A stretch of DNA of 41,558 bases from contig QKGI01000145.1 of NCBI GenBank assembly GCA_003250475.1, forward strand, positions 1-41,558. The letters run 5' to 3'. Each line of letters opens with the position of its first letter. Within the stretch, counting starts at the first letter, position 1. Positions 12,217 through 34,369 of this stretch are shown here, piece after piece. Under the pieces are notes generated by a model. That model was not told the origin of the DNA. It made no database searches and worked only from the letters and a program-made list of their open reading frames with translations. The stretch comes from Bacteroidota bacterium (GTDB taxonomy: Bacteria; Bacteroidota; Bacteroidia; Bacteroidales; VadinHA17). Made by a program: the position numbers and the translations under genes.

Positions 12217-12804
12217 ATGGAACTGGTATTTGCCACAAATAATGCACATAAAATAAAGGAGATACGCGATCTCCTGGATCAGGACTTCAGGATACTTGGA
12301 CTGGCTGAGGTGAATATAAATGAGGATATACCTGAGGAGGCAGAAACGCTGGAAGGAAATGCCCTCTTCAAAGCACGGTTTGTATATGAGAGGACAGGTA
12401 TGAATGTCTTTGCAGACGATACGGGGCTCGAAGTTGATGCTCTCGGGGGTGCTCCGGGAGTATATTCTGCTAGATATGCCGGTGAAGGAAAAAGCTTTGA
12501 TGACAACATCGTCAAGCTTTTAGGTGAAATGAAAAATGCTGATAACAGGGCCGCACGGTTCAGAACCGTAATTGCCCTGATTCTTGACGGCAGTGAATAT
12601 TTGTTCGAAGGTTCGGTAGAGGGAGTGATCCTCCGGGAAAGAAAAGGCATTGGCGGATTCGGGTACGATCCGGTTTTTAAGTCGCTGAATGATGAGAGGA
12701 CTTTCGCAGAGATGCCTCTTTCAGAAAAAAATAAAATATCTCACCGGGCATTGGCAACAAAAAAATTACTGGCATTTCTGGCTGACAACGCCGTGGAAAA
12801 ATAA
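12217..12804 (+). CDS. rdgB: Non-canonical purine NTP pyrophosphatase (RdgB/HAM1 family)
   Basis: This enzyme hydrolyses ITP, dITP and XTP to monophosphates and so removes deaminated purines from the nucleotide pool. The 195-residue protein shows the whole family signature: ATNNAHKIKEI at the N-terminus, the catalytic ADDTGLEVDALGGAPGVYSARYAG, FGYDPVF, and EKNKISHRALA near the end. It ends 26 bases before porZ and is probably co-transcribed with it. Confidence 0.96.
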   Translation: MELVFATNNAHKIKEIRDLLDQDFRILGLAEVNINEDIPEEAETLEGNALFKARFVYERTGMNVFADDTGLEVDALGGAPGVYSARYAGEGKSFDDNIVKLLGEMKNADNRAARFRTVIALILDGSEYLFEGSVEGVILRERKGIGGFGYDPVFKSLNDERTFAEMPLSEKNKISHRALATKKLLAFLADNAVEK

Positions 12805-12830
12805 TACAAATCTTTGCCGGCAAGAGAGCA

Positions 12831-19889: not shown

Positions 19890-22688
19890 ATGAAAAAGAT
19901 TTGTCTCTCTGCACTAATGGTTCTTGCAACCTCCCTGTCATGGGCACAGCCATCACAGGATATACCTGTTGATACAGCCTACCGTATTGGCAGGCTGGAT
20001 AACGGCCTGACCTATTATATCAGGCATAACACTGAGCCGGCGGGAAGGGCAAGCTACTATATCATCCAGAATGTAGGTGCCATACTCGAGAAAGACAGCC
20101 AGAACGGGCTGGCTCATTTCCTTGAGCATATGGCCTTCAACGGAACTGAGCACTTTCCAGGGAAAGAGCTGCTGAGCAGCCTGGAAAAGAACGGAGTGGC
20201 TTTTGGCAGGAACATTAACGCCTATACAAGCTGGGATGAAACGGTATATAACCTGAGCGACGTACCGGTTGATAAACCCGGGCTTATTGATACATGCCTG
20301 CAGATACTTGCAGACTGGTCAGACTACCTGACCCTCGATGATGAGGAGATAAATAAAGAACGAGGGGTAATAAAAGAGGAGTGGCGCACAAGACGAAACG
20401 CATCATGGAGAATGATGACGCAGATGCTGCCAGTACTGTTTGAAGGCTCGCAATATGCTGTACGGGACGTGATTGGCGATACCATGGTCATCAATAATTT
20501 TCACCCTGATACCCTTCGCGATTTCTACCACAGATGGTATCGCACCGACCTTCAGGCTATTGCTGTTGTGGGTGATATCAACCTTAATGAGGTGGAGGGA
20601 AAAATCAAAGATACCTTTTCCCCGATAGCTGCTGTCCGGAATCCTGTTCCCAGGCCTGAAAGCCTGCTTATACCCAGGAAAGGGACGAAATACCTGCTGG
20701 TAACTGACCCGGAAGCGTCAGAAACTTCCGTAACCCTGTACATCATTGATAGCCTGCCGGACAGAAAAGCCAGGGATCTGAATTATATACGTGATGGCTT
20801 TGTGATATCACTTATGAACAACATGATGCGCAGGCGTTTCAGCGAAATCGTACAAAAAGGAACACCTCCGTTCATCTCCGGAAGGCTATCTTACGGCTCC
20901 TTCGTGGCCCGCAATTACAATGCCCTTACCCTTACGGCATCAGTGCGCGAGAATGAAGAGGCAAAGGGCTTTGAAGCAGCGATTACCGAAATGGAAAGAG
21001 CACGCAGGCATGGATTTACTCAAGGAGAGCTTGACAGGGCCAAAGCAACGATGCTCTCAAACTTCGAAAGCCTCTATAAGCAGAAGGATAAAATAAGCAA
21101 TGACGACTGGGCTGACCAGGTAAAGGACAACTTCCTGACTGATGAGCCGATCCCGTCACTTGATGTTCAATATGGCTATTACAGGGAGATCCTCCCGACG
21201 ATAACCCTGGAAGAGGTAACTGGCAGACTCAGGGGACTCATAGCGGATAACAACCGGTATATTGTTGTGGAAGGGCCTGATGACAAGGATCATCTTACTG
21301 AGTCCGGGGCACTGGAGGTTATTGGAAAAGTAGCCTCAGAGGAGATCCCTCCTTACGAGGATATAACCGGCGGATCCTCCCTGATCAATGAGACTCTTGC
21401 AGGTGCGGAGGTGGTAAGGACTATCACAATGCCCCAGTTTGATGCTACCGAGTGGACACTGGCAAATGGAGCAAGGGTTGTGTTCAAACACGCCGATTTC
21501 GAGAAGGATAATGTGACTGTTACGGGCTATGCCTTTGGCGGGTCATCAGTGTATCCTGATTCCCTCGTTCCTTCACTCTCTCTTTTCCCCCAGGTTATCT
21601 CCATGTACGGTGCCGGTGAGTTTGACAATGTGACGTTGACCAAAATGCTCGCCGGGAAAAAAGCCTCCGTTTCACTTGGAATTCAGGAAACCATGGAGAC
21701 AGTAGCCGGCAGTTCCACACCCGGGGATTTTGAAACACTGATGCAGCTCCTTTTCCTGAGATTCGCAAGACCCAACTACAACAGGGAAGCTTATGATGCA
21801 ATAATCGGACGCTATACTGCAGCGATCACAGCCATGCAGAAAGATCCCAACAAGATGATGTCTGACAGCCTTTCGATGAACTTAACCTGTTACCACCCGA
21901 GGACATTTCTGCTGACTCCTGAGTCAATGAAGCTGATCAAATATGAGGATATCAACCATATCTACGCAACATCTTTCAACGATGCCTCTGAATTCACTTT
22001 CTTCATCACCGGTAATATCGAAGAGTCCGTAGCCCGTACGATGGCATCAAAATATATAGGATCACTCCCATCCGGATATTTGAACAGGACATGGAAAGAT
22101 CCTGGTATACATCAGCCTGAAGGAACTGTAAGAAAAGAGATTCCCGTTCCGCTTGCCGTTCCAAAAGCTACTGTTATCATGAGCTACTCCGCCCCCTCCG
22201 TTTACAAGCCTGTAAACTACATTGCCATGGATGTTCTTAAAGGTATCCTTGACCTGGTATATACTGAAAAGGTAAGGGAGGAACAGGGGGGAACCTACGG
22301 CGTCAGCCTGAAGGCTTCATCGCAGAAACGACCAGAAGAAAAAGCTACCCTGATGATAGCGTTTGAATGTGACCCAGAAAGGGCTTCAGAACTCAAGGAG
22401 ATAATCTACAGGGAGCTGGAAGAGATAGCTGAAAATGGACCTTCCCAGGTCAATCTTGACAAAACGGTAAGCAACATGCTCAAGACCCGTGAGGAGGCCC
22501 TGCTACATAACAATTACTGGGCCAATATCATACGCGGTTATTACCTCAACGGCATTGACAACAATGATGCCCGGAACTACGCTGACATCCTGAACAAATT
22601 GACAGTGAAGGATTTGCAGAAAGCAGCCAGGAAATACCTGGCTAAAGCTGATCTTCTTGAAATTGTCTTTGTTCCAGAGAAGAAATAA
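19890..22688 (+). CDS. M16 family zinc metallopeptidase (pitrilysin/insulinase type), secreted
   Basis: This is a predicted exported zinc peptidase, probably periplasmic, acting on peptides or small unfolded proteins. After a signal peptide (residues 1-19, ending SWA-QP) there are four clam-shell half-domains over 932 residues. The first carries the inverted zinc motif HFLEH (about residues 75-79, in GLAHFLEHMAFNG) and the third ligand region NKERGVIKEEWRTR at about 155. A second inactive half follows, and the C-terminal half holds the usual YTEKVREEQGGTYGV motif for substrate binding. The start is supported by the signal peptide directly after the ATG. Its last 47 bases overlap the convergent hydrolase gene. 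Confidence 0.92.
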   Translation: MKKICLSALMVLATSLSWAQPSQDIPVDTAYRIGRLDNGLTYYIRHNTEPAGRASYYIIQNVGAILEKDSQNGLAHFLEHMAFNGTEHFPGKELLSSLEKNGVAFGRNINAYTSWDETVYNLSDVPVDKPGLIDTCLQILADWSDYLTLDDEEINKERGVIKEEWRTRRNASWRMMTQMLPVLFEGSQYAVRDVIGDTMVINNFHPDTLRDFYHRWYRTDLQAIAVVGDINLNEVEGKIKDTFSPIAAVRNPVPRPESLLIPRKGTKYLLVTDPEASETSVTLYIIDSLPDRKARDLNYIRDGFVISLMNNMMRRRFSEIVQKGTPPFISGRLSYGSFVARNYNALTLTASVRENEEAKGFEAAITEMERARRHGFTQGELDRAKATMLSNFESLYKQKDKISNDDWADQVKDNFLTDEPIPSLDVQYGYYREILPTITLEEVTGRLRGLIADNNRYIVVEGPDDKDHLTESGALEVIGKVASEEIPPYEDITGGSSLINETLAGAEVVRTITMPQFDATEWTLANGARVVFKHADFEKDNVTVTGYAFGGSSVYPDSLVPSLSLFPQVISMYGAGEFDNVTLTKMLAGKKASVSLGIQETMETVAGSSTPGDFETLMQLLFLRFARPNYNREAYDAIIGRYTAAITAMQKDPNKMMSDSLSMNLTCYHPRTFLLTPESMKLIKYEDINHIYATSFNDASEFTFFITGNIEESVARTMASKYIGSLPSGYLNRTWKDPGIHQPEGTVRKEIPVPLAVPKATVIMSYSAPSVYKPVNYIAMDVLKGILDLVYTEKVREEQGGTYGVSLKASSQKRPEEKATLMIAFECDPERASELKEIIYRELEEIAENGPSQVNLDKTVSNMLKTREEALLHNNYWANIIRGYYLNGIDNNDARNYADILNKLTVKDLQKAARKYLAKADLLEIVFVPEKK

Positions 22689-23514
22689 ACCTGCTCATCT
22701 CGAGTGCAATCTCGGTACTATGTGTTCTCCTGTTATCCTCCATATCGAGGTATAAGGAATTCTTTATCTGCATGGCTATTGCTTCTCCCTCCGCATGACT
22801 GTGAAACCTGTCACTGGAGGCAACAACCACCAGTGACGGCACACAGACTTCTGCAGGTGCATCTCCGATGTGATAACGGCTGAGATCCCTCACTGCCTTC
22901 CCGATACGCTCCGGTATTGCTGTGTCCAGATTACGGCAGTTTATGAGATACATCTCCTCATCCTGCTCAATATCTATCACAAAAGTCCTCAGGTACCACT
23001 TGAGGAATGGTTTTACAGGTCTGTAAACGTATTTCGCTATCCTGGCAAGCGCAAGTAGCCACCCCCTGAAAGGGAAAGATCCGTTAGGTTCAACAAGAAT
23101 AACCGCCCCGGGTCTGATCGCAGATATTGAAAAGGCCTCGATAATTGCCGTGGCTCCCAATGAATATCCGGCCAGAATATATGGTCCCTTCCCTGCAAAC
23201 TTCAACTCTACATACCTGACAATATCATTGGCAATGTCATCAACAGTGAATCCTTTACCCGCCTCAACCCTGGCACTTCCTTTTTCACGGGTCTCAAGAT
23301 AATACACGGTGTGGGAGCGCGTCAGTTCAATAAGTACCTCACGGAAATTTTCAATTATTGAAACCAGCCCGGGGATGAAGACAACAGGAGGATCGCCGCC
23401 AGGCTCAGGAGGCTCAAATACGACAGTCTTCAGTTCCACCCCCGTCTCGAGGTAATAATATTCAGTCTTATATTTTGCTCCCGGGTGACAGAAGGCAGAG
23501 TAATCACAATCCAT
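22642..23514 (-). CDS. Alpha/beta hydrolase
   Basis: This 290-residue protein has the alpha/beta hydrolase fold: an early strand and oxyanion turn (PPVVFIPGLVSIIENF), the nucleophile elbow GYSLG (ILAGYSLGATAI, Ser at about 117), an acid at VVVASSDRFHS and a catalytic His in RRTHST. It lacks an evident signal peptide and is likely cytoplasmic. The substrate is unknown. Two cysteines and a CHPG motif at the extreme N-terminus (MDCDYSAFCHPG) are unusual and could bind metal, but this is only a remark. The gene ends 47 bases inside the M16 peptidase gene on the other strand, and it diverges from the metallophosphoesterase. Confidence 0.8.
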   Translation of the reverse strand: MDCDYSAFCHPGAKYKTEYYYLETGVELKTVVFEPPEPGGDPPVVFIPGLVSIIENFREVLIELTRSHTVYYLETREKGSARVEAGKGFTVDDIANDIVRYVELKFAGKGPYILAGYSLGATAIIEAFSISAIRPGAVILVEPNGSFPFRGWLLALARIAKYVYRPVKPFLKWYLRTFVIDIEQDEEMYLINCRNLDTAIPERIGKAVRDLSRYHIGDAPAEVCVPSLVVVASSDRFHSHAEGEAIAMQIKNSLYLDMEDNRRTHSTEIALEMSRFISSLEQRQFQEDQL

Positions 23515-23669: not shown

Positions 23670-24440
23670 ATGAGACTCGGAATTATTACTGATATTCATG
23701 AAAATGTAACAATGCTGGAAGCTGTGCTGAAGCTTGCAGATGTGAACCGTTGTGATGAGCTGGCCTGCCTTGGCGACATAGCAGGATATGATCGCAGGTT
23801 CTATAATTACCATTTCAGGAGGAGTGCCAGCCAATGTATTTCTATTATCAGGTCAAACTGCCGCTGGGTGGTAGCCGGTAATCATGACCTTTTTGCAGCC
23901 GGAAGATTTCCTGGCTATTCCAACGGATACAAATACCCCGAATCCTGGTTTCAAATGGCCCCGTTAGAAAGAAGAGATGCTTCACAAGGCCTCGTGTGGT
24001 CATTTGAAGGGGAAGACCCCAATGATCTGGAGGAAGATGACATAGCTTATCTTAACACTATCCCTGAGTATAGTATAGTGCCGGCGAACGGCGTACGGTT
24101 GCTGCTGTCGCATTATGTATGCCCGGATTTTACAGGGTCCACCACAGTGCATGTCACGAAACAGCATCATATAAGAGGTCTCTGGAAATTCATGACCGAC
24201 AATGACTTAACGTTCTCCTTATCCGGTCATTCCCACAAACCTTTTGCCTACTTTTCCCATCGTGAAACGCTACCCTTCCTGAAAGCCTTTCATCCTGTAC
24301 CGGGTGACAGCATATATCTGGGGAATGAGATGGCAATGATCCTGTTACCTCCGGTTACCGGGGGTAATGGAAGAACATCTTTTTCGATGATTGATATGGA
24401 GACGGGTATGCTGCATCTTATGCATGAAAAAGTAACTTAG
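23670..24440 (+). CDS. Calcineurin-like metallophosphoesterase
   Basis: This 256-residue cytoplasmic enzyme has the complete set of two-metal phosphoesterase motifs: D8-x-H10 (TDIHENV), GD in CLGDIAGYDRR, GNHD in VVAGNHDLFAAG, a His in LLSHYVCPD, and GHSH in LSGHSHKPF. The layout resembles the YfcE/protein-phosphatase-like branch. Its substrate cannot be told: phosphodiester, phosphoprotein or dinucleotide polyphosphate are all possible. It ends nine bases before the sensor gene at 24450 and is very likely co-transcribed with it, so it could act on the signal that sensor makes or reads. Confidence 0.87.
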   Translation: MRLGIITDIHENVTMLEAVLKLADVNRCDELACLGDIAGYDRRFYNYHFRRSASQCISIIRSNCRWVVAGNHDLFAAGRFPGYSNGYKYPESWFQMAPLERRDASQGLVWSFEGEDPNDLEEDDIAYLNTIPEYSIVPANGVRLLLSHYVCPDFTGSTTVHVTKQHHIRGLWKFMTDNDLTFSLSGHSHKPFAYFSHRETLPFLKAFHPVPGDSIYLGNEMAMILLPPVTGGNGRTSFSMIDMETGMLHLMHEKVT

Positions 24441-24449
24441 GAGAAGACT

Positions 24450-27311
24450 ATGAATGAAGCGGATCCACATAAAAAAAGAAAGATATTCCTCCTGAAAGTA
24501 GACCTGCCTGCCCTGCTGGCAATTATTCTTTTTGCAGGTATGATCTTTCTTTACCTGATACCTGCCTTTGAAAATGTCATGATGGATCGCAAACGGAATC
24601 TAATCCATGAGATGACAGCATCGGTCAATAGCCTCCTTGATTACTATCATGGACAGGAGCTGGCCGGTACCCTGGAAAGACAGGCAGCCCAGGAGGAGGC
24701 TAAAAATGCCATAAACACAATCAGGTATGGTCAGGATCTTAAGGATTACTTCTGGATAACTGACATGGTGCCTGTGATGATCACCCACCCCTACAGACCG
24801 GACCTTAATGGCCATGATCTGACAAATTTCCATGATTCAAGAGGTAAGGCAATTTTTGTCGAATTCGTAAAAGCCGTATCCGATGGAGGCGAAAGCTATG
24901 TTGAATATATGTGGCAATGGAATGATGATTCAACAAGAATAGTACCGAAACTGTCATATGTGAGGCTATTTGAGCCCTGGGGATGGGTCGTGGGCACCGG
25001 TATATATGTAGAGGACGTCAGGACCGAGATTCGCAGAATGGAGATAAGGTCTCTTGCTATTTCAGGGATATTTGGGTTGATGATCATTTCCCTCTTATTT
25101 GCCATCTCCAGGCAGAGCCATAAGATAGAACAGAAAAGAACCAGAGCAGAAAGGGAACTGCATAAATCAAGGGAGCTCTACAGGACACTAGCTGAGGCTG
25201 CATCAGAAGGAGTTATTATATGGTCTGACCTGGGACTTCAGGCCAACAAGACATTGCTTTCCTGGATTGAATACAGCGAGGAAGAGATACTGAAGAGGCC
25301 ATTGTCAGATATCCTGAACTCACATGGGGTTTTTGGCACTGATAATCCCGGGAAATTGTACGAGGAGCTTACAGCCCGGCAATATGTTGAGTGTCTTCTG
25401 ACTACAAAAACCGGAAGACAATTGTCCTGTCATGCCGATCTCTCGAGGATTACAATAGGTGACCAGAATGCAGTACTCATTGTAATCCGTCCGGCAGTGA
25501 ACCCGTCACTGATACCTGGCATAAACCTTCCCGCCTCGTTGCTTGATAGTGCCGGAACAGGCTTCTTCCGGACAACTTATGGAAAAAAACCAAAATTTAT
25601 TCATGCAACAGCCCCTTTTCTGGAATATCTGGGTTATTCCGACATGCAGGAACTGCATCAGCAATACATCGAAACAATATTCGCCGACACCCGGCAATAC
25701 GAGCTTGTAAGAAAGAAGCTCGAAAGCAGAAAAGGGCTGTTTAATGAAGAGATGGTTCTTAAAAGAAAAGACGGAGATGAACTGCTGGCCCTTGTAACCA
25801 TGATGGTGGTTGATACCGGGGCAGATGAAATATGGTGTGATGGTAGTGTCGAGATCCTTGCCGCCTCGGCTTCTTCCTCGGTCATGCCTCCTGCCGGGTA
25901 TGAGGCCTTGGGAGCTTCTTATATTACAGAGGTGCCTGTTTCCTCAGTCATGAGCATTCCGGTTACCTGCCCTGAGAATACGCCTTACACCAGGGCTCTC
26001 TCACTGATGAAAGAGAACAACACAGGTGTTATCGTTGTATTAAGCAGTACCGGTGAGCCAATGGGTGTTGCCAGTTCCGGGAGCATAGGATTAGGAATGT
26101 CAGAGACTGACCAGGCAGGCACCAGCATTTTCAGGTTCATGCAGGCACCACCCTCGTTTATTGACATACACAGCCGGATAGGCTCAGCCCTTGACAGGAT
26201 TAAGACCAGTAAGGCCGGATGCCTGTTGGTGATGGCTCCGGATAACAAACTGGCAGGGACAATTACAAATGAAGATCTGGTCCGTGCCTTCTCCATGACT
26301 CCCGTGTTACTTCTAAATGAAATATCCGGAGCCGGGTCTGTTAACAGCCTTAAGAACACCTGGCATAACTACCGGAAGGTAGCCCTGTCAATGCTGATAG
26401 GACACGCAGACCCCTATTCGCTTTCATTGCATATCTCATCCATTGCCGATGCTATATGCCGAAGAGTGATAGAGCTGTGCATTGAAAAAGCTGGCAAGGC
26501 TCCATGCCGCTTTTCGTTCATCCAGACAGGAAGTGCAGGACGAAAGGAACAGAGTTTTCTTACAGACCAGGATAATGCAATTATTTTTGAGGACCTCGAA
26601 GGTGAACGCCTGCGGGAGGCAGAAGAGTATTTCCTTGACCTCGGAAGAAGGACCAATGAAATGCTTGACAGTATAGGCTTCCGCCTCTGTAAAGGTAATA
26701 ACATGGCCGGAAATCCTAAATGGTGCCAGCCACTTGACAGGTGGAAGAGCTACTTCTCAGACTGGATAAAGACTCCCGGTCCTGCAGAGATACTTGATGT
26801 AAGCATTTTCTTCGATTTCAGGCATTGCTATGGAGATCACACACTATGTGAAGGACTAAGGGATTATGTTAAAACCAGCCTGCAGACAAGTGACATTTTC
26901 TTCTACCACATGTCCCTGGCGCTTAAGCCATTTAACCCGGCCAGGACAGTTCTTGCAGAAGATGCTGCCGATATCAAAAGAGTCCTTATGGCGCTTACAG
27001 GAGTTATCCGCCTTTATGCCCTTAAACACGGTCTTGACGGATTGTCAACCGTGGAACGGATAACAGAGCTTCATGCCGGGAAGTATATTAATCATGAGAT
27101 ACTTCGCGGTGCTCTTCAGGCATGGAGAGACCTTACATATATTCGTCTGTCACATCAGGCGTCATGCATTGCCGTTGGTAAAGAACCGGATAACAGGGTT
27201 GATTTCAGGGTAAGGTACGCCGATATGCAATTACCTGCGGCCAGGGCTATAGAAGAGATAAATAACCTGATGCTAAAGGCCGGCAGTGATTTTCACTCGG
27301 TAACCATTTAA
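24450..27311 (+). CDS. Membrane sensor: Cache - PAS - PAS - CBS pair - DUF294 nucleotidyltransferase-like protein
   Basis: This 953-residue protein joins an extracytoplasmic sensor to a nucleotidyltransferase-like output. In order: a membrane helix at about 17-38; a single-Cache (sCache_2-like) domain at about 45-190, ending WVVGTGIYVEDV; a second helix at about 200-220; a short coiled coil; PAS domains at about 240-350 and 365-475; a CBS pair at about 490-625; a DUF294 domain at about 640-785 with the nucleotidyltransferase motif GSAGRKEQSFLTDQDNA near 693; and a DUF294_C domain to the end. In known DUF294 proteins the input is a cyclic-nucleotide-binding domain plus CBS. Here Cache and PAS replace it. 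Related DUF294 proteins are often encoded beside ActP/VC_2705-type symporters, as here. It is converse to the porin-symporter operon, the two overlapping by 4 bases, and follows the phosphoesterase. The nucleotidyl target, if any, is unknown. Confidence 0.85.
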   Translation: MNEADPHKKRKIFLLKVDLPALLAIILFAGMIFLYLIPAFENVMMDRKRNLIHEMTASVNSLLDYYHGQELAGTLERQAAQEEAKNAINTIRYGQDLKDYFWITDMVPVMITHPYRPDLNGHDLTNFHDSRGKAIFVEFVKAVSDGGESYVEYMWQWNDDSTRIVPKLSYVRLFEPWGWVVGTGIYVEDVRTEIRRMEIRSLAISGIFGLMIISLLFAISRQSHKIEQKRTRAERELHKSRELYRTLAEAASEGVIIWSDLGLQANKTLLSWIEYSEEEILKRPLSDILNSHGVFGTDNPGKLYEELTARQYVECLLTTKTGRQLSCHADLSRITIGDQNAVLIVIRPAVNPSLIPGINLPASLLDSAGTGFFRTTYGKKPKFIHATAPFLEYLGYSDMQELHQQYIETIFADTRQYELVRKKLESRKGLFNEEMVLKRKDGDELLALVTMMVVDTGADEIWCDGSVEILAASASSSVMPPAGYEALGASYITEVPVSSVMSIPVTCPENTPYTRALSLMKENNTGVIVVLSSTGEPMGVASSGSIGLGMSETDQAGTSIFRFMQAPPSFIDIHSRIGSALDRIKTSKAGCLLVMAPDNKLAGTITNEDLVRAFSMTPVLLLNEISGAGSVNSLKNTWHNYRKVALSMLIGHADPYSLSLHISSIADAICRRVIELCIEKAGKAPCRFSFIQTGSAGRKEQSFLTDQDNAIIFEDLEGERLREAEEYFLDLGRRTNEMLDSIGFRLCKGNNMAGNPKWCQPLDRWKSYFSDWIKTPGPAEILDVSIFFDFRHCYGDHTLCEGLRDYVKTSLQTSDIFFYHMSLALKPFNPARTVLAEDAADIKRVLMALTGVIRLYALKHGLDGLSTVERITELHAGKYINHEILRGALQAWRDLTYIRLSHQASCIAVGKEPDNRVDFRVRYADMQLPAARAIEEINNLMLKAGSDFHSVTI

Positions 27312-28573
27312 AACCGGTAAATAGTACTCAGCAGCAGTCTGATATTTGTTACATTATGGGTATCGGTGACCATACCGTCATTTCCCATGGTGCCGTATGC
27401 CGCCAGTGTGCTCTCAAGCTCGGCAGCAATGCTGAGTTTACCCTCAGTAACGGTTAACCTGGGTGATATCCTGAAGAGATGATCTATATTACTGCCCCTG
27501 CCGTAAAAGGTAGTGCCAACAGCGTCGCGTGAACCAAGGTTCCTGTTGTAACCGCTGAAAAGACCGACAGAAGTTTTTTTGCCATTTGTGCGGACATCAA
27601 CCCAGAACCCCGCATTGTTTATTGTTGACCACTCACGTACCTGGTCAACCGGGTTGCTTATGCCTGACACAGCATATCCGCCGATCATCATCATATCACT
27701 TGCGTTTTCAGCGTATACACCCATCAGTGAGATATTAACCGGACTGGTTTTAATCTTCAGAGTGGCAAAGGCGGCCATGCTTCCCAATCTGGTGCCGGTC
27801 TCGACATTTGCCGGCGTACTGATTTCCGGTCTGATTACCTTGTAATCGACGCCGGCCCATGCAGTAAGACTGCCGGAAACAGGGATCTTTACCTGTATGT
27901 TCGTACCCGGAATCCCGCTGTTTCTTATGTATTTACTGCTGTTTCCGTCGGGCCCGGGTGAGGTGAAGTCGCGTTGCGAATAGGCTGTCAGTGTAAGGCT
28001 GAACTTTGCAGGGGAGTAAACAAGCCTGACCTGTGGATTGCGGCTGAAAGGAAGAAAAGGTGCGCCCGTATTGAAGCTTATCGTACCCGGGAAATTTTCA
28101 GCCGGGAACATTGGATGCCAGTACTGACCGGTAATAAGCGTCACACGTGTCCAGTCCATCCTGAGGTAAGCATGACGAAGCCTGAACCCGTTCAGATCAC
28201 TCTCGCTGGTGCCGAAAAATTCGGCTTCTATGGCACCGGAAGTCTTTGCTCCGAAAGCGTCGGGTCCTTTTATATCGCCCCTTACCCTTGTCTGGATATT
28301 CAGAATATGAAACGAAGGGTTGGCGTTCAGATCATTCATGTCTTCATCATACAGTACATCATCCGGAAACAGGTAAAAATGACCTTCACGCAGTCCGTTC
28401 GAAGCCGATGACTGCCTGCTGTCATAAAATATATCTGTTTTTACAAATCCTGAGAGTTTTATTCCCCAGTCCTGGTTATCGTCCTGTGCCAGAACCCCTG
28501 GCGCGAGTAAAACAATACTGATAATTACTACAGCTACTCTTTTCATCTGACTTGATTTAATATCTTGTTTCAT
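27308..28573 (-). CDS. Outer-membrane porin-like beta-barrel protein
   Basis: This 421-residue protein looks like an outer-membrane channel. A better start than 28573 is the ATG at 28546, which begins a clean signal peptide (MKRVAVVIISIVLLAPGVLA-Q). The mature part opens with IKLSGFVKTDIFYDSRQ, a common first strand of porins. It continues as alternating amphipathic strands (RHAYLRMDWTRVTLITGQYW, RLVYSPAKFSLTLTAY) and closes with the terminal aromatic RLLLSTIYRF. I do not recognise a named family; DcaP-like porins are the nearest guess. It is the last gene of the operon with the symporter, 111 bases after the one-TM protein gene, and would carry the symporter's substrate across the outer membrane. 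Confidence 0.75.
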   Translation of the reverse strand: MKQDIKSSQMKRVAVVIISIVLLAPGVLAQDDNQDWGIKLSGFVKTDIFYDSRQSSASNGLREGHFYLFPDDVLYDEDMNDLNANPSFHILNIQTRVRGDIKGPDAFGAKTSGAIEAEFFGTSESDLNGFRLRHAYLRMDWTRVTLITGQYWHPMFPAENFPGTISFNTGAPFLPFSRNPQVRLVYSPAKFSLTLTAYSQRDFTSPGPDGNSSKYIRNSGIPGTNIQVKIPVSGSLTAWAGVDYKVIRPEISTPANVETGTRLGSMAAFATLKIKTSPVNISLMGVYAENASDMMMIGGYAVSGISNPVDQVREWSTINNAGFWVDVRTNGKKTSVGLFSGYNRNLGSRDAVGTTFYGRGSNIDHLFRISPRLTVTEGKLSIAAELESTLAAYGTMGNDGMVTDTHNVTNIRLLLSTIYRF

Positions 28574-28684
28574 GATAATAATATTTGCTTAAAAAGTACT
28601 TTTCAGAAACCTTTTGTCCTACTACCAAAGGTCTGGCTTTTCAAAAACATGTGTCCGGCACCATATGACTTAAAATGGAGGTTG

Positions 28685-29473
28685 CTACTCATTCTGTCTT
28701 TTTTTTCTGTCAGGAGGAAACAGAGATTTGATTATTCCAGGCTTGATTGGCTCTCCGCCAAGAAGCACGCTTAGATTACTCTCAGCTGTGCGGTTATCCT
28801 TCCATAGTGAAAGAGCCATATCATAATATGACAGCGCAGAGTCCTGCATCATCAGGTGACGGTATGCCGTCGCCTTGTTTGTATAGCTTACCGAGAGTCT
28901 CCTGGGTGTTTCAATCTGTGCAAGCATCAGGTCACTGACCCTTTTCTTGAAAAGCCTTTTGAAATTAAGCCCTGCAAAAGCAGGATCATCTTCATTCATG
29001 CCGGGAAGAAGCCGCTGAGCGACAACCTCCTCCGGCAGTTCTCCCCATTCACCGAGCCATGTTTTATATATGGAAATACTACTGTCACAGTATCTAACCG
29101 AAAGCTCAAGCAGGGTATTCTTCTCCGCACCGGTTATCGTGCTGTCATACAAGGCCTTCATAAGGAGTGCACTACTTTTATTGTTATATATGACTCCTGT
29201 TTCCCATGATGACTGATACCCTGGCACCCTGCTGTAAATGAGGGCAGCGGAATCAAGAAGCGAAAATGAGGAAAAAGTCTCCGCAATCCCTGATGACCGA
29301 TCGTATTCCGACATGAATAGCCGCGCACCGGCAACACGGGGATCCTCAGACCTGTTGACTCCCCTGTAATAAATAAATGCAACGACCACTGCCAGCAACG
29401 CAACAGATAATGTGATTGCGAATACTTTTTTTGTTCCGCCTGATATAACGGTCAGATCTTTAAAACTCATCAA
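28685..29473 (-). CDS. Conserved-looking one-TM protein with a helical, possibly TPR-like extracytoplasmic domain
   Basis: I do not recognise a family for this 262-residue protein. It has one N-terminal membrane helix (about residues 18-38, VFAITLSVALLAVVVAFIYY) and then a long, mostly helical domain. The stretch SVSYTNKATAYRHLMMQDSALSYYDMALSLWKDN looks like a tetratricopeptide-type helix pair, and an earlier pair may lie around SSALLMKAL. The C-terminus is basic (PPDRKKRQNE). Its ATG overlaps the symporter stop (ATGA, 29470-29473), so the two are translationally coupled. An accessory or scaffold role for the symporter or porin is inferred. Confidence 0.65.
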   Translation of the reverse strand: MMSFKDLTVISGGTKKVFAITLSVALLAVVVAFIYYRGVNRSEDPRVAGARLFMSEYDRSSGIAETFSSFSLLDSAALIYSRVPGYQSSWETGVIYNNKSSALLMKALYDSTITGAEKNTLLELSVRYCDSSISIYKTWLGEWGELPEEVVAQRLLPGMNEDDPAFAGLNFKRLFKKRVSDLMLAQIETPRRLSVSYTNKATAYRHLMMQDSALSYYDMALSLWKDNRTAESNLSVLLGGEPIKPGIIKSLFPPDRKKRQNE

Positions 29474-31161
29474 TTATGAACCTGTTCTGCAAGAAACTTC
29501 TTTATTTCAAGAGGTGTGGGTTTGCTCATTTTTGACACAATTATATTAACCACTATTGCCAGTGGTGCTCCAAACCAGGCAAAGTACCATACATTTAGCC
29601 AGTATGATATAAAGGCCTGCCCGGGAAGAGAGCCTCCGCTGAGACCGACAATAAAATATGTCAGTGCGATTACAGTGACAAGACTTCCTGCAAAGAGTCC
29701 GGCTTTTGCACCTGCCCTGTTTGATCCACTCCACCATATTCCAAGGAGGAATAACGGAAATATCGTACATGCTGCCATTGAAAACGCGACGGAGACAAGC
29801 TGGGCTATTAACCCCAGTCTCATCAGCGCGACTATTGTTACGAGCACGGCCATGAGCACAGTACCTATACGGGCAATTTTAAGCTGTTGCTTCGGTGTGG
29901 AGGCGGGGTTTATTACCTTTACATAGAGGTCATGGGAAAAGGCCGAAGCTCCCGCCACGAGCAATCCTGAGACAGTTGAGAAGGCAGCCGATACAGCACC
30001 TGCGGCAAGCAGGCCGACAATCAGGGAATTAACACCACCGAGCTGAGCAGTATAAACCACTATGGCATCCTTGGCCAACACGCCCACCTCCGGATTTGAA
30101 GAGAGAAGCTTACCAAAAGTAGCATAAGCCGGGGCGGTCCAGTAAACCAGGCAAATGAAAAAGAGCCCCCAGACAACTGACCACCTTGCATCCGATATCT
30201 TCGGTACAACATAGAATCGCTGTATCACATGAGGAAGCCCGGCTGTACCTACCATCAGTGAAAAACATATCGCAATCCACTGAAAGAAGGTTGTACCTGT
30301 TGATGGATCCCATGGCATGGCAAATTCCGGACTGGGCACAATTGAAAGGTCGTGCCCATAGGCATTGAGAAGGGCTGCTCCATCAGAAATATTTGGAGCA
30401 GGAATACCGTGCACAATGTCAGTCACAGCCGCGCCGTACCCGATCTGAGGAACCAGCCAGAAATAGTCAAACTTAAAAGCCAGGATAAATACCGGCAGCA
30501 GGAAAGATGTCACAATTATGACATATTGTATCTGCATATTCTTCGTTGCTCCGATCATACCAGAGATAAGGGTATAGAGCAACACCACAGACGAACCGAT
30601 GATCACTGCCCAGGAATAGTTAAGACCCAGTATCCACTTGAACATTAGCCCTATACCTCCAAACTGCCCGACACAATAGGCAAATGATATAAGAATAGTG
30701 AATATTGCACTTACAATCCGCAGGTCACGTGAATAGTAACGATCTCCTATAAAATCAGGTGCAGTATACTTCCCGTATTTTCTAATCTGGGCTGCCATCA
30801 ATATCAACAGTAACACATATCCTCCCGTCCAGCCGACTACATAAGCCAGTCCGTTATACCCAAAGCCGTACATCATCCCTGCCATGCCCAGTACAGAGGC
30901 AGCACTCATCCAGTTGGATGCTATAGCCATCCCGGATCCGACTTTTGAGATGCTTCTTCCTGCTGCATAATAATCAGTAGGATCCTTTGCGCGGAAAAAT
31001 ATCCCGACAAGAACAAATGTTATGAGTATCGCAATAAGGATAATTGCCGGACCTGTCTTGAAACTTCCCTCCAGCTGGGTAAGATTCTGTGCATGTAATG
31101 AAACTACTCCTGACAGCAGAAGTAAGATTGTAAAATATAACTTTTTCATGTCTCTCTGCAT
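29470..31161 (-). CDS. Sodium:solute symporter, acetate permease (ActP)/VC_2705-like
   Basis: This is a 563-residue inner-membrane transporter of the SSS family. It begins with a signal-like segment (MKKLYFTILLLLSGVVSLHA, from an inner ATG at 31149), as ActP proteins do, followed by about 13 hydrophobic helices. Typical family stretches are DYYAAGRSISKVGSGMAIAS, NWMSAASVLGMAGMMYGFGY, YTAPDFIGDRYYSRDLR, LISGMIGATKNMQIQY and GAVSAAFSTVSGLLVAGASA. Members move acetate or other short organic acids with sodium. The exact substrate cannot be read here. It starts six bases after the gene for a probable small subunit and overlaps the next gene, so it is the core of the operon 31938-27308. Confidence 0.88.
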   Translation of the reverse strand: MQRDMKKLYFTILLLLSGVVSLHAQNLTQLEGSFKTGPAIILIAILITFVLVGIFFRAKDPTDYYAAGRSISKVGSGMAIASNWMSAASVLGMAGMMYGFGYNGLAYVVGWTGGYVLLLILMAAQIRKYGKYTAPDFIGDRYYSRDLRIVSAIFTILISFAYCVGQFGGIGLMFKWILGLNYSWAVIIGSSVVLLYTLISGMIGATKNMQIQYVIIVTSFLLPVFILAFKFDYFWLVPQIGYGAAVTDIVHGIPAPNISDGAALLNAYGHDLSIVPSPEFAMPWDPSTGTTFFQWIAICFSLMVGTAGLPHVIQRFYVVPKISDARWSVVWGLFFICLVYWTAPAYATFGKLLSSNPEVGVLAKDAIVVYTAQLGGVNSLIVGLLAAGAVSAAFSTVSGLLVAGASAFSHDLYVKVINPASTPKQQLKIARIGTVLMAVLVTIVALMRLGLIAQLVSVAFSMAACTIFPLFLLGIWWSGSNRAGAKAGLFAGSLVTVIALTYFIVGLSGGSLPGQAFISYWLNVWYFAWFGAPLAIVVNIIVSKMSKPTPLEIKKFLAEQVHN

Positions 31162-31167
31162 ATTTAC

Positions 31168-31938
31168 TTATTCAACAATTCCTTCTTTATTTAAGCGCCA
31201 CTCTATCAGCTTATTGTAAACTATGCACAGCACCACGAAAAGCACCAGCAGAAAGACGGCAGTATAGAAATAATGAAATGGAAATCCTAGGAACTTCGTA
31301 TCAGTAAGCACCGACTGATTGTGGGTGAGATACAATTTCATCAGGTCAGGAAGACGATCAAGTGAGGGGTCCGTTAATGAGGCAGGATAATCCTTCTGCA
31401 GGCTGGCTGCAAGAATCGGGGCCTCAAGATTTGTTGTAGCATACCCTGTAAAAGGCTCAAGAATGCTTACCAGGCTGGCGCTTGCATCCTGTATCCGGAA
31501 CTTAAGGTCCATATACTCCTGGTCCTTTAAGCCGGCAATCTCTGAATGCATCGCCTCCAACCCGGCAACCTTCTCAATTACCATAGGCCTGAGGGAGTCA
31601 GGTACCATGGCAAACGTAACTGAACTTATAGCAACCGAGAGAAGCTGCTGATCCTTTGAAAGAACAGTATTCTTTCCTTTAACCATCAAAAGTGAATTGA
31701 GAATAACATGATAATCAACCTGATCAAGATTACCATTTAACACATCAGGCCATTCTGACTCAAAGAGGGTTAGGGCCTTCTCGGGCGTCGGCTTCTCTAT
31801 TGCCTTGAGAAGGATCTGAAAGCCAAATACTGCTACTGCCCAAATAGTAAGCATGAAAAAGATAACATTCCTGTTCTTCCTTCCATGCAGATTGCGGGGA
31901 CTGAAAATACTGAAATTGTACTGATCGCTTGATTCCAT
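31168..31938 (-). CDS. DUF4212-like symporter small subunit with a large insertion
   Basis: The two ends of this 256-residue protein look like the small subunit (DUF4212) that accompanies VC_2705-type symporters. Residues 14-45 (SPRNLHGRKNRNVIFFMLTIWAVAVFGF...) resemble its first helix. Residues 216-254 (LGFPFHYFYTAVFLLVLFVVLCIVYNKLIE...) resemble its second helix and basic tail. In ordinary small subunits of under 100 residues the two helices are separated by a short loop. Here about 165 residues lie between them, mostly helical (PEKALTLFESEWPDVL, LMVKGKNTVLSKDQQLLSVAI), probably outside the cytoplasm. It precedes the symporter by six bases. The assignment is by eye and moderate; the operon position supports it. 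Confidence 0.65.
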   Translation of the reverse strand: MESSDQYNFSIFSPRNLHGRKNRNVIFFMLTIWAVAVFGFQILLKAIEKPTPEKALTLFESEWPDVLNGNLDQVDYHVILNSLLMVKGKNTVLSKDQQLLSVAISSVTFAMVPDSLRPMVIEKVAGLEAMHSEIAGLKDQEYMDLKFRIQDASASLVSILEPFTGYATTNLEAPILAASLQKDYPASLTDPSLDRLPDLMKLYLTHNQSVLTDTKFLGFPFHYFYTAVFLLVLFVVLCIVYNKLIEWRLNKEGIVE

Positions 31939-32018
31939 TGGTTTTCGGGTTTTTGTAATCCGTTTAAAGATTAGCTAAAATAGAGATTTTGACATATGTT
32001 GTTTCTGATATCGTCTTG

Positions 32019-32031
32019 CAATGTAACATTG
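32019..32031. promoter_or_regulatory. Perfect inverted repeat, candidate operator between the symporter operon and the Crp/Fnr gene
   Basis: CAATGT-A-ACATTG is a perfect palindrome with six-base arms in the 205-base divergent gap 31939-32143. It overlaps a second inverted repeat TAACA-T-TGTTA. It lies just upstream of a -7 element for the regulator gene and could be the binding site of that Crp/Fnr protein. It does not match the E. coli FNR or CRP consensus. Confidence 0.4.
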
Positions 32032-32043
32032 TTATAAATCAAC

Positions 32044-32051
32044 TATATTTG
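32044..32051 (+). promoter_or_regulatory. Candidate -7 element for the Crp/Fnr gene
   Basis: TATATTTG matches TAnnTTTG, about 93 bases before the regulator's ATG at 32144. The -33 region holds the palindrome at 32019-32031 instead of a clear TTTG. Confidence 0.35.
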
Positions 32052-32143
32052 AGAGAAATTACCTGTTTTAACTGCAATGTCAGCCGGGACAGTCATTGAA
32101 ATAAAAAGGAATCAATCCATGTCCATGGTATAATTGACTGAAA

Positions 32144-32833
32144 ATGAGAATCACCGGCAAGATGCCCTGTGAGGCATGCAAACACAAGTGCGACATTTAT
32201 GTTGCCTTCAGGAAGTCAGGCAGATCATTGCCGGAATCAAACATTATAAGGGCAAAATTCAGGAAACATGAGATGATATGCAGGCAGGGCGACAGTGTCA
32301 GCCATGCCATTTACCTTACGGAAGGAACGGCAAAGCTGTATATCGAGGGGATAAACGGCCACAATATCATTCTCTACCTGATGAGGCCACCTGCATATAT
32401 TGGATTGCTTTCATTCTTTGAAAGCATTCATTATACCTATTCAGTGACTGCGATTGAAGATTCACACATATGTATGGTGAGGCTTGAAGCCCTGAAAGAA
32501 CTATACCTGGAAAACCACGAAGTGCTTCTCCGCCTCAACAAAGCATTCGGCAAATCTGTCGCCCTTATCATGAAAAAAATCATATGCCTTAATCAGAAAA
32601 ACATCAGGGGCCGTATTGCCGAAAGTCTTCTGTCACTGGCTGCCTTCTATGGCAATGACAGTTTCACGCTGCCGGTAACCCGTAAGGAATTGGGAGAGAT
32701 GTCCGCCATCTCGGAGGAAAACACCGTCAGGCTGCTTACCGAACTGAAAAATGAAGGAATTATTAGAATCCAGGGAAGAGACGTCTCGATCATTGATGCC
32801 GCCCTTTTAAGCAAAATATCCGACCTTGGATGA
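32144..32833 (+). CDS. Crp/Fnr family transcriptional regulator with FNR-like cysteines
   Basis: This 229-residue regulator has an N-terminal cNMP-binding-type beta-roll (MICRQGDSVSHAIYLTEGTAKLYIEG...SFFESIHYTYSVTAIEDS), a dimerisation helix and a C-terminal winged helix with the recognition motif TRKELGEMSAISEENTVRLLTELKNEGII. Cysteines at 9, 12 and 16 (PCEACKHKC) and C110 (HICMVRLEALKEL) fall where E. coli FNR has C20, C23, C29 and C122, so an oxygen-labile iron-sulfur cluster is plausible. C46 is an extra. It is transcribed divergently from the symporter operon across a gap with a perfect palindrome and probably controls it. The family is sure; the cluster is inferred. Confidence 0.88.
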   Translation: MRITGKMPCEACKHKCDIYVAFRKSGRSLPESNIIRAKFRKHEMICRQGDSVSHAIYLTEGTAKLYIEGINGHNIILYLMRPPAYIGLLSFFESIHYTYSVTAIEDSHICMVRLEALKELYLENHEVLLRLNKAFGKSVALIMKKIICLNQKNIRGRIAESLLSLAAFYGNDSFTLPVTRKELGEMSAISEENTVRLLTELKNEGIIRIQGRDVSIIDAALLSKISDLG

Positions 32834-32902: not shown

Positions 32903-34369
32903 CTAATAGATAATTTTTTCAGATTTATAAGAAAAAACCGGTTCCTTTTTCCCCCCGGGCTCTTCTACCCTTAAATTTATGAATTCTGCCCCCTGTACAT
33001 CATCAAGAACCACTGCTGTCCGGTAATCCTTTTTTTCACAAACAAGTTTCACATTTTCAAAAGTAATGCCCCTGGCATGCCTGATGTAAAATCCCCATGC
33101 CGGCAGCTCCCTGAACATTGAAAACTCAGGGTAATTCTTTCCCAGTTCAGGCACCTTGTCAAGCTCGTCAAGACCGACTCTGGCGTAGTGAGGATTACCT
33201 CCTCCCGGATAATGTATCTCTATGTTTTTAAGAGTTATGTTTTCTACGGGAGCGTCAGGCATCCCGACAATCGAGGAGGGGGAGATATTGCGGGGCAGAT
33301 CTTCCACCGGCCCTTCATAATTATAACCGGCATCAGGTTTTGTCAAAGGGACCTCGGCATAGACATTCGAGATTGTTACGCCGTTTATCCTGCCCTTTTT
33401 GTTGCCGCTCCTTTCACCAATCCTCAGGAAAATGACGTTCCCTGTATTGACTGACCTGAGAGAGTCAACGAGTATGTTCTCAACCACCCCACCGTCGACA
33501 GCCGCAAATGTTACAGCTGACCTGTATGTATCAAATACTGTGTTCTTGACAATTTTAATGTTCCGGAATCCACCACGACCTACAGTCCCGAACTTTATGC
33601 CGTTAGCACTGGTTCTGACAGTATTGTTATATACAAATACATTCTGACAGATAAAGTCCGGATTATGTGATTTCAGGCATATACCGTCATCAGCTGCATC
33701 GAAGTATGAATTTGAGACTACCACGCTGTCACAATCCACAATATCCACACCATCATTGTTCCAGTATGACTTGCTGTCAACGGTTATATTGTCTATGACG
33801 AGGTTCCTGCACTGGTCATACTGCTGGTTCCAGCTGCCGGGGTCTTTCAGAAAAATATCTCTTATCCGGATATTACGGCAGCCTCTGAAGTATATGTTCT
33901 GAGGCCTGATGGTCTCGTTTGGTCTGTCATACTTCAATGGGTCCTTAACCACTCCCTTGTGAATCATATCCACCAGGTTATTTGCCACCTGGAATCCCTG
34001 CCCGTCAATTACTCCTTTGCCTGTTATTCCTATGTCATGCTGGTCAAGTGCAAATATCAGTGCCGTCCAGTTATAATTTCTCTCATAATCGAAAGGATTG
34101 ACAGACCCAACGAGAATCGCGCCTTCCTCAAGATGAATGGTAACATTCGACTTGAGGTAAATGGTGCCCGTGAGGTATCTGCCTACGTAGAAGACCAGCC
34201 GTCCGCCACCATTCTCACTGATATAGTCTATCCCTTTCTGGATTGAACTGGTATTAAGTGTGGTCCCGTTTGACTTCGCACCAAACAGCGATGCATTGTA
34301 ATCCCTGCCTGCCAGCTGAACCACAGATGCCAGGAGTACCAGTACAGATAATATCTTTCTCATTTTCAT
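32903..34369 (-). CDS. Glycoside hydrolase family 28 (polygalacturonase/rhamnogalacturonase-like)
   Basis: This is a secreted or periplasmic parallel beta-helix enzyme that hydrolyses galacturonic acid linkages in pectin. The 488-residue protein has a signal peptide (residues 1-21) and the pectin-lyase-fold start YNASLFGAKSNGTTLNTSSIQKGIDYI. The catalytic blocks are visible as YWNNDGVDIVDC and DAADDGICLKS, holding the catalytic Asp residues of the NTDG and DDC motifs. In place of the usual GHG motif it reads SANGIKFGTVGRGG, seen in divergent GH28 subgroups. It lies 103 bases after the GH106 gene on the same strand, so the two are likely expressed together for rhamnogalacturonan breakdown. Confidence 0.87.
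   Translation of the reverse strand: MKMRKILSVLVLLASVVQLAGRDYNASLFGAKSNGTTLNTSSIQKGIDYISENGGGRLVFYVGRYLTGTIYLKSNVTIHLEEGAILVGSVNPFDYERNYNWTALIFALDQHDIGITGKGVIDGQGFQVANNLVDMIHKGVVKDPLKYDRPNETIRPQNIYFRGCRNIRIRDIFLKDPGSWNQQYDQCRNLVIDNITVDSKSYWNNDGVDIVDCDSVVVSNSYFDAADDGICLKSHNPDFICQNVFVYNNTVRTSANGIKFGTVGRGGFRNIKIVKNTVFDTYRSAVTFAAVDGGVVENILVDSLRSVNTGNVIFLRIGERSGNKKGRINGVTISNVYAEVPLTKPDAGYNYEGPVEDLPRNISPSSIVGMPDAPVENITLKNIEIHYPGGGNPHYARVGLDELDKVPELGKNYPEFSMFRELPAWGFYIRHARGITFENVKLVCEKKDYRTAVVLDDVQGAEFINLRVEEPGGKKEPVFSYKSEKIIY

Follow-up and report, generated by a model that had tools for sequence, protein, structure and literature searches.

Genes at the locus

We analysed a stretch of 41,558 nucleotides from a Bacteroidota bacterium of the VadinHA17 lineage (assembly GCA_003250475.1, contig QKGI01000145.1, positions 1–41,558), hereafter the window, and focused on seven genes at positions 23670–32833: MPE, SENSOR, PORIN, TPR, SYMP, SMALL and CRP (Table 1). 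They represent a widespread and apparently undescribed variant of the known cassette that joins a symporter to a DUF294 protein. With a probability of roughly 55%, we read them as a two-membrane uptake module for acetate or a close C2–C3 carboxylate that would carry its own control protein.

All seven genes are complete and intact, in a genome of 3.47 Mb (168 contigs, estimated 97.8% complete). The operon proper consists of the four minus-strand genes in the order SMALL–SYMP–TPR–PORIN, spaced by a 6-base gap, a 4-base overlap and a 111-base gap; MPE and SENSOR, both on the plus strand with 9 bases between them, constitute a separate convergent pair in the window. The stop codons of SENSOR and PORIN share 4 bases (27308–27311), an overlap that recurs in related loci (L087, L088, L089, L091, L092 and L100). 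A preliminary description of this DNA had placed a porin, a helical protein with one transmembrane (TM) segment, a symporter and an insert-bearing small subunit in one operon, flanked by a Crp/Fnr regulator and by a Cache-PAS-PAS-CBS-DUF294 protein following a metallophosphoesterase. The tight spacing of the four minus-strand genes bears out the operon, and domain searches concur with the assignments made there.

Table 1 Genes, domains and candidate regulatory site of the module (positions in the window)
Feature	Description	Position	Strand	Details
MPE	Calcineurin-like metallophosphoesterase	23670–24440	+	256 residues; Metallophos 45.5 bits
SENSOR	TM, sCache_2, TM, two PAS, two CBS, DUF294, DUF294_C	24450–27311	+	953 residues
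SENSOR domain	sCache_2	24579–25037		125 bits
SENSOR domain	DUF294	26373–26783		136.4 bits
SENSOR domain	DUF294_C	26958–27206		55.1 bits
PORIN	DcaP-like outer-membrane beta-barrel	27308–28573	-	421 residues
TPR	One-TM protein with soluble helical TPR-like domain	28685–29473	-	262 residues; TTG start, ATG immediately after
SYMP	VC_2705-type sodium/solute symporter	29470–31161	-	563 residues; SSF 176.6 bits, TIGR03648
SMALL	DUF4212-type small subunit with helical insert between two TM helices	31168–31938	-	256 residues
Regulator site	Likely regulator site between CRP and SMALL	32019–32042	-	TTGAT-N4-AACAA (32029–32042) overlapping palindrome CAATGTTACATTG (32019–32031)
CRP	Crp/Fnr-type regulator, divergent from SMALL	32144–32833	+	229 residues; cNMP_binding and HTH_Crp_2

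Conservation of the gene set

A SMALL profile searched against the GTDB collection yielded 202 confirmed relatives, of which the best 80 were used for locus counts. These loci (L numbers) come mostly from Bacteroidales metagenome genomes, with some labelled Delongbacteria, Cloacimonadota, Aminicenantes, Armatimonadetes and others, and many are cut by contig ends. One of them (L152) comes from Marinilabiliaceae bacterium N1Y90, whose record has no MAG label and which may be culturable; it contains SMALL, SYMP, TPR, PORIN, SENSOR and MPE. We clustered all open reading frames of the 80 named loci and the window into families. Across these 81 loci, SMALL was found in 81, SYMP in 77, TPR in 62, PORIN in 40, SENSOR in 31, MPE in 22 and CRP in 14, and each family outside the seven occurs in at most 7 loci. 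The seven families are therefore the only widely recurrent ones, and the gene set is kept together in related genomes. Gene order is likewise maintained. SYMP immediately follows SMALL in 73 of 80 loci under a distance rule; the seven loci failing it (L096, L099, L133, L141, L147, L159 and L161) were excluded from later counts. TPR immediately follows SYMP in 53 of the 54 loci with at least 1 kb of sequence there, and 38 loci extending at least 6.5 kb past SYMP contain a porin in 26, a sensor in 27 and MPE in 16 cases. Of the 30 named sensors, 16 lie downstream of the transport genes and point the same way, another 11 are oriented towards them and the remaining 3 are upstream, so that 27 of 30 follow or face the operon. 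A chance neighbourhood is ruled out by the 80 named loci and by further relatives.

The preliminary description had proposed a module of six families. Its core is conserved, and the claim does not extend to every member: CRP occurs in only 14 of 81 loci, and among the 38 long loci the porin is absent from 12 and the sensor from 11. What holds of the broader proposal is that the genes make up a conserved two-membrane uptake module that includes a sensor; the suggested gating of uptake through nucleotidylation is a hypothesis, and the solute can be narrowed by inference, with the qualifications given below, to a short carboxylate.

SMALL is rare, with 2 of 198 genomes in a sample of the class and 11 of 60 close relatives encoding it, the source genome included in both counts, and no relatives were found in viral contigs. 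Among five inspected genus-mates that encode SMALL, the full set of seven genes is present in three; CRP is missing from the available stretch in another, and a contig end truncates the locus in the last. Within the 60 relatives, a long DUF294 sensor (>790 residues) is encoded by 9 of 11 genomes with SMALL vs 5 of 49 without it (p = 6e-6, kinship ignored). In four of these five genomes, the sensor lies on a short or cut contig and still has module genes beside it: two retain most of the module, arranged as SYMP-TPR-PORIN-SENSOR-MPE at a contig start (L269) and as SENSOR-PORIN-TPR-SYMP (L271), and in the other two (L268 and L270) MPE alone accompanies SENSOR. The f97 loci that combine SMALL with a sensor (L057–L059) show neither a TPR gene nor an adjoining MPE in the stretch.

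Further genes adjoin the module in subsets of loci. A gene family lies next to SMALL in L114, L123 and L150, its L114 member being an Fe-S ParA/MinD-type ATPase. In the window, CRP is followed by a pectinase-like gene (32903–34369, minus strand; GH28-type by eye) and a gene for a 960-residue secreted protein (34473–37355, minus strand); both adjoin the module in L087–L090 as well, which makes this side of the module stable among close relatives. On the other side, an alpha/beta hydrolase gene (22642–23514, minus strand) overlaps the end of a peptidase-like gene (19890–22688, M16-type by eye) by 47 bases, and both genes stay near MPE in several close relatives.

The Cache sensor and its association with symporters

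Hydrophobic segments at residues 19–37 and 201–219 bracket the Cache domain of SENSOR. In an alignment of 30 of the 31 sensors (the truncated L130 was excluded), sCache_2, DUF294 and DUF294_C are present in all 30, CBS in 28 and PAS_9 in 27. SENSOR carries the GlnD-like nucleotidyltransferase motif GS-x-GR-x-E followed by D-x-D, and the corresponding residues G694, S695, R698, E700, D706 and D708 are invariant in all 30 aligned sensors. The DUF294 nucleotidyltransferase is therefore probably enzymatically live.

We compared Cache-bearing with other DUF294 proteins in a phylum sample of 395 genomes, 125 of which hold DUF294. The 121 matches outside the window were taken up; L176, L180, L182 and L258 were not recognised by profile or open reading frame calling and are absent from the resulting 118 classified genes (13 Cache and 105 non-Cache, window counted). 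The 28 listed matches below 35 bits are not among the 118 either; 15 of them lie in open frames of 859–1001 residues and may belong to a separate long nucleotidyltransferase family. A symporter gene lies within 3 kb of 12 of 13 Cache vs 13 of 105 non-Cache genes (p = 7e-9, kinship ignored), and the thirteenth Cache gene (L072) has only 370 bases between it and the end of its contig. We built a tree from 81 rows, comprising 41 of 42 Cache rows (the truncated L069 excluded) and 40 randomly picked non-Cache rows; the Cache-bearing proteins make up one side of a branch with support 100/97. The earlier assignment of this DUF294 protein to symporter-linked families is thus upheld for the Cache type, for which an absence of such a link is ruled out; among non-Cache proteins, the link within 3 kb is limited to the 13 of 105.

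The symporter type changes within the Cache group. The sensors of L062–L064, L067, L068 and L071 accompany an SSF symporter of another kind, next to which a small gene lies separately; in L062 and L071, where it was scanned, this gene is DUF485. The L070 sensor accompanies a third symporter type, also with DUF485, and L069 resembles L070. Against the ActP model NF006903 (cut-off 750), the symporter of L062 reaches 727 bits and is thus close to ActP; that of L069 is less close, with 411 bits against this model and 460 against MctC (cut-off 670). The Cache sensor therefore tracks small-acid-type symporters and not a single symporter family.

Phosphodiester-cleaving partners of DUF294 proteins

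Residues H10, D36, N71, H72, H148, H187 and H189 of MPE are invariant among 20 aligned sequences, and D8 is nearly so. With the window included, 20 of 31 sensor loci have MPE next to the sensor. In the phylum sample, the partners of the two DUF294 types are exchanged: (i) 78 of 105 non-Cache vs 0 of 13 Cache loci have a DnaQ-type exonuclease gene on the same strand at a distance of at most 300 bases (p = 2e-7, kinship ignored), four examples being confirmed by Pfam, and (ii) MPE lies within the same distance, again on the same strand, at 8 of 13 Cache vs 0 of 105 non-Cache loci (p = 2e-9, kinship ignored). Relative to known DUF294 cassettes, Cache replaces cNMP and MPE replaces the exonuclease.

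The 31 sensor loci of the SMALL set yielded no exonuclease encoded as a gene of its own. The L115 sensor (12627–16208) has an RNase_T (DnaQ-type) exonuclease domain fused at its N terminus, and the sensors of L146 and L151 adjoin a metallophosphoesterase outside the MPE cluster. A phosphodiester-cleaving enzyme thus recurs beside DUF294 in several unrelated forms. A CitMHS-type transporter gene lies near the fused L115 sensor. A gene for a TIM-barrel AP_endonuc_2 protein, considered as a third eraser, adjoins the Cache sensors of L057 and L072; the L057 protein was scanned, and its gene is on the opposite strand.

GlnD attaches and removes a nucleotide within one protein, the removing domain being HD. 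The window SENSOR differs in that it contains no such domain and is adjoined by a separate MPE. Because a phosphodiester-cleaving partner recurs beside DUF294, we infer that MPE and SENSOR may act as an eraser and a writer of a nucleotidyl modification. On a Hymenobacter plasmid (L283), the pair of DUF294 and exonuclease is surrounded by genes for glycoside hydrolases and a LacI regulator, and the stretch contains no symporter; such pairs therefore serve other loci too.

Transport proteins

SYMP scores 493.4 bits against TIGR03648 (cut-off 320.75), matching in two stretches, which assigns it to the VC_2705 family; most of the full-length matches listed from the phylum score about 720–897 bits. 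It lies below the cut-offs of both ActP models (176.4 bits against TIGR02711, cut-off 1099.25; 202.3 bits against NF006903, cut-off 750) and of MctC (205.8 bits).

SMALL matches TIGR03647 (34.7 bits, cut-off 26.05) and DUF4212 (46.3 bits, cut-off 30), the latter in two segments set apart from each other. An insert of about 160 residues (approximately residues 47–208, positions 31315–31800) lies between its TM helices, so SMALL departs from the short uninterrupted two-TM hairpin of 77–79 profile positions. For this comparison, it was aligned with four short DUF4212-type proteins, identified by Pfam (L060), by annotation (L284 and L285) or by look (L074). An AlphaFold2 model of SMALL (mean pLDDT 88.6) places helices at residues 17–47 and 221–251 and folds the insert into a helical domain. 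A known fold for the insert was ruled out in the PDB, where Foldseek returned no match (best E 1.4), and a common origin with the TPR protein was ruled out by profile comparison (probability 0.4%). We infer an extracytoplasmic position for the insert.

The TPR protein has a hydrophobic segment at residues 17–35 and an AlphaFold2 model with a mean pLDDT of 90.8. Its profile matches TPR structures, the TPR-like part being C-terminal, and the best Foldseek match is a TPR protein at E 2.1e-3, with none at 0.001. The soluble domain is probably periplasmic.

The window PORIN has no Pfam match by itself, which rules it out as a plain Pfam porin. A profile built from 36 family sequences matches DcaP (6eus, 3.8e-8) over 139 positions, and two of the 36 sequences weakly match PF19577 DcaP at E up to 0.1.

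Regulator and likely promoter site

Cysteines C9, C12, C16, C46 and C110 of CRP are present in all 14 sequences; this is a set that we take to be Fnr-like, with a CxxCxxxC spacing that differs from that of E. coli FNR. CRP scores 48.2 bits against the Fnr model NF008365 (cut-off 228). The divergent interval between CRP and SMALL contains the motif TTGAT-N4-A(A/T)CAA overlapping the palindrome CAATGTTACATTG. We compared up to 350 bases upstream of SMALL in loci with at least 150 bases there: the palindrome (at most two mismatches) is found in 10 of 13 named CRP loci vs 0 of 63 loci without CRP, and the TTGAT box in 6 of 13 vs 0 of 63. In the 3.47 Mb genome, the exact palindrome occurs once; with at most one mismatch there are 4 matches at 3 places (two of these being C39 and C139), compared with 5 for a reversed-pattern control. 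A wide CRP regulon is ruled out by this lack of a genome-wide excess. Within the window, at most two mismatches give 6 matches vs 1.61 expected, a number reached by 2 of 100 shuffles. The distribution of the site points to CRP as a dedicated local regulator in this lineage only, which perhaps ties uptake to oxygen or redox state. A scan of the window with Rfam gave no match at gathering scores.

Candidate solute

We derived the ligand pocket of the Cache domain by counting along the alignment to the pyruvate-bound structure 4EXO. SENSOR residues Y100, W102, H113, Y153, W155 and K167 align to Y96, F98, H109, F148, W150 and K161, and none of the six varies among the 30 aligned sensors. For sCache_2 domains that bind short-chain carboxylates, the available text of PMC12415202 reports strong conservation of the aromatic residues, the Tyr/Phe and the Lys. 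It adds that pyruvate is contacted by the His in 4EXO, with the same contact in PscD and Adeh_3718, whereas L-lactate sensors have Leu, and it describes the residue set with His for domains that bind C2/C3 acids.

The metabolic context offers a second indication. Acetate-CoA ligase-type genes occur in 5 of the 80 loci (L103, L104, L111, L113 and L115); the two that were tested (L104 and L113) both exceed the NF003313 cut-off, as does one acetate-CoA ligase of the window's genome, encoded on another contig. A gene neighbouring the L104 ligase exceeds the cut-off for glycine C-acetyltransferase, and genes of this cluster type lie near the module in the same five loci, from Delongbacteria-labelled and other genomes. 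Together, the ligase-type and glycine C-acetyltransferase-type genes, of which those of L104 and L113 were scored, hint at threonine/acetate metabolism.

Because of the pocket residues and the ligase-type neighbours, acetate or a close C2–C3 acid is the likely solute. A different small acid (propionate, pyruvate or glycolate) or a wider range of acids, the porin perhaps serving dicarboxylates, has a lesser but appreciable chance of being correct: a Cache pocket with His suits several C2–C3 acids (available text of PMC12415202), SYMP is only distantly ActP-like, and the closest solved relative of the porin is DcaP. The acetate-CoA ligase-type genes in five loci argue for acetate instead, as does the one tested sister sensor, that of L062, which lies beside a near-ActP symporter.

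Proposed mechanism and alternatives

In the proposed module, the DcaP-like porin would pass the acid through the outer membrane, and the VC_2705-type symporter would move it inward together with SMALL, with its large extracytoplasmic helical domain, and the membrane-anchored TPR-like partner. The Cache domain of SENSOR would read the acid outside, and its PAS and CBS domains, responding to the redox state or to adenylates, would set the activity of the cytoplasmic GlnD-like DUF294/DUF294_C nucleotidyltransferase. This enzyme would reversibly nucleotidylate a target, most simply the symporter or its small subunit, and the adjoining MPE would take the nucleotide off, so that control might run from the outside ligand to transport. 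In one lineage, the local Fnr-like regulator would additionally control transcription.

Several observations weigh against this reading. (i) Eleven of the 38 long loci contain no sensor; five of these genomes encode a Cache-DUF294 protein on another contig and six show no DUF294. (ii) Eight of 31 sensors (L104, L110, L113, L142, L149, L156, L157 and L166) are neither adjoined by nor fused to a recognised phosphoesterase or exonuclease, some of their neighbours having been inspected individually, and 27 of 105 non-Cache DUF294 genes have no adjoining exonuclease on the same strand; since 8 of 31 sensors lack a recognised partner, a nearby eraser is evidently not obligatory. (iii) Counts of lysine plus arginine around the TM helices give no decisive topology. 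(iv) SYMP falls far below the ActP and MctC cut-offs.

A bolder version of the proposed module is tentative and, in our view, rather improbable as a whole: transport would be controlled from outside by reversible nucleotidylation, and the erasers acting on the symporter or the enlarged SMALL could replace one another, being DnaQ-type exonucleases, fused or separate, or one of two or more kinds of metallophosphoesterase. If this is true, the widespread DUF294 proteins share one function, and the exonucleases beside them act on something other than nucleic acids.

Three other explanations appear unlikely. In the first, the sensor produces a small nucleotide signal and the phosphoesterase degrades it; the signal acts on CBS domains, the Crp/Fnr protein or the symporter. 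Some Pol-beta-type nucleotidyltransferases synthesize nucleotide messengers, some metallophosphoesterases are nucleotide phosphodiesterases, and a cNMP-type regulator is found in 14 of 81 loci. However, most of the 20 loci with a sensor and an adjoining MPE have no Crp/Fnr gene, and DUF294_C is named a substrate-binding domain in Pfam and grouped with the C-terminal domains of GlnD/GlnE in the available text of PMC3710099.

In the second, SENSOR works by binding only: Cache, PAS and CBS reshape the protein, which touches the symporter directly, while the nucleotidyltransferase is idle and MPE incidental. CBS domains do bind adenylates, and DUF294/CBS genes adjoin symporter genes in distant bacteria. 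An idle enzyme sits poorly with active-site residues invariant in 30 of 30 aligned sensors, and an incidental MPE with the recurrence of a phosphodiester-cleaving partner in several unrelated forms; we regard this explanation as improbable.

The third would see a mere co-located carboxylate-use locus, in which the transport genes share regulation with a stand-alone signalling pair that has other targets. The sensor-free loci described above, five of them with a sensor on another contig, are as this explanation would have it, as is the small proportion of Bacteroidota non-Cache DUF294 genes with a symporter nearby. The Cache sensors themselves argue otherwise: they lie beside a symporter in all but the case close to a contig end, and they keep the link with other symporter types, which leaves co-location with little likelihood.

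Comparison with known systems

If the proposed module is correct, these bacteria may move small acids across both membranes by a route that includes a dedicated control protein. In this variant, a DUF294 protein is linked to a defined class of extracellular ligands, to the two membranes and to a phosphodiesterase partner that can be exchanged, through which DUF294 function becomes directly testable; the variant also indicates that the small subunit of a symporter may include a sizeable extracytoplasmic domain that matches no fold in the PDB. The literature contained no tested function for DUF294 that we could find, and the available text of PMC3710099 and PMC5715377 gives predictions. Our search, which covered few subscription journals, found no published Cache-DUF294 protein, split DUF4212 subunit or this gene set. 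The preliminary description had called the module undescribed, which stands for this variant in the literature searched; the combination of symporter, DUF4212 or DUF485, CBS-DUF294 and exonuclease is annotated in Proteobacteria.

Individual components resemble characterized proteins. PscD (5g4y), Adeh_3718 (4k08) and the Vibrio parahaemolyticus MCP (4exo), from which the six pocket residues were taken, share the sCache_2 family with SENSOR; these proteins are chemoreceptors, whereas the output of SENSOR is a nucleotidyltransferase. Both transport subunits exceed the cut-offs of the VC_2705/DUF4212 families (TIGR03648 and TIGR03647), SMALL being split by its insert, and the likeness of the PORIN family to DcaP is one of profiles. 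Pflu5625 of Pseudomonas fluorescens, a cNMP-CBS-nucleotidyltransferase in the CrbS/CrbR acetate regulon, provides a tie by regulon between a DUF294-type control protein and acetate use; the available text of PMC5715377 predicts nucleotidylation, reports no phenotype for the mutant, describes a cAMP-type domain and names no Cache domain.

The closest counterpart is the Proteobacterial cassette annotated in Paracoccus sp. AK26 (pAK1), Shinella sp. HZN7 (pShin-06) and Rhizobium oryzihabitans (p5). One plasmid order is acs-DUF485-acetate symporter-DUF294-3'-5' exonuclease (two genes between; acs in the Paracoccus case), and another is DUF4212-symporter-DUF294-exonuclease (one gene between); the three DUF294 proteins of this known type that were scanned all contain cNMP_binding. 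Like the window, this cassette combines an SSF symporter and a two-TM small subunit with CBS-CBS-DUF294-DUF294_C and a phosphodiester-cleaving partner. Unlike it, the window has a membrane Cache-PAS-PAS input in place of an N-terminal soluble cNMP domain, a metallophosphoesterase in place of a DnaQ-type (RNase_T) exonuclease, the SMALL insert, and in addition the TPR-like protein, the porin and the Fnr-like regulator. Two features of the cassette itself, the cNMP input and the exonuclease partner, thus differ, and the working plan looks the same.

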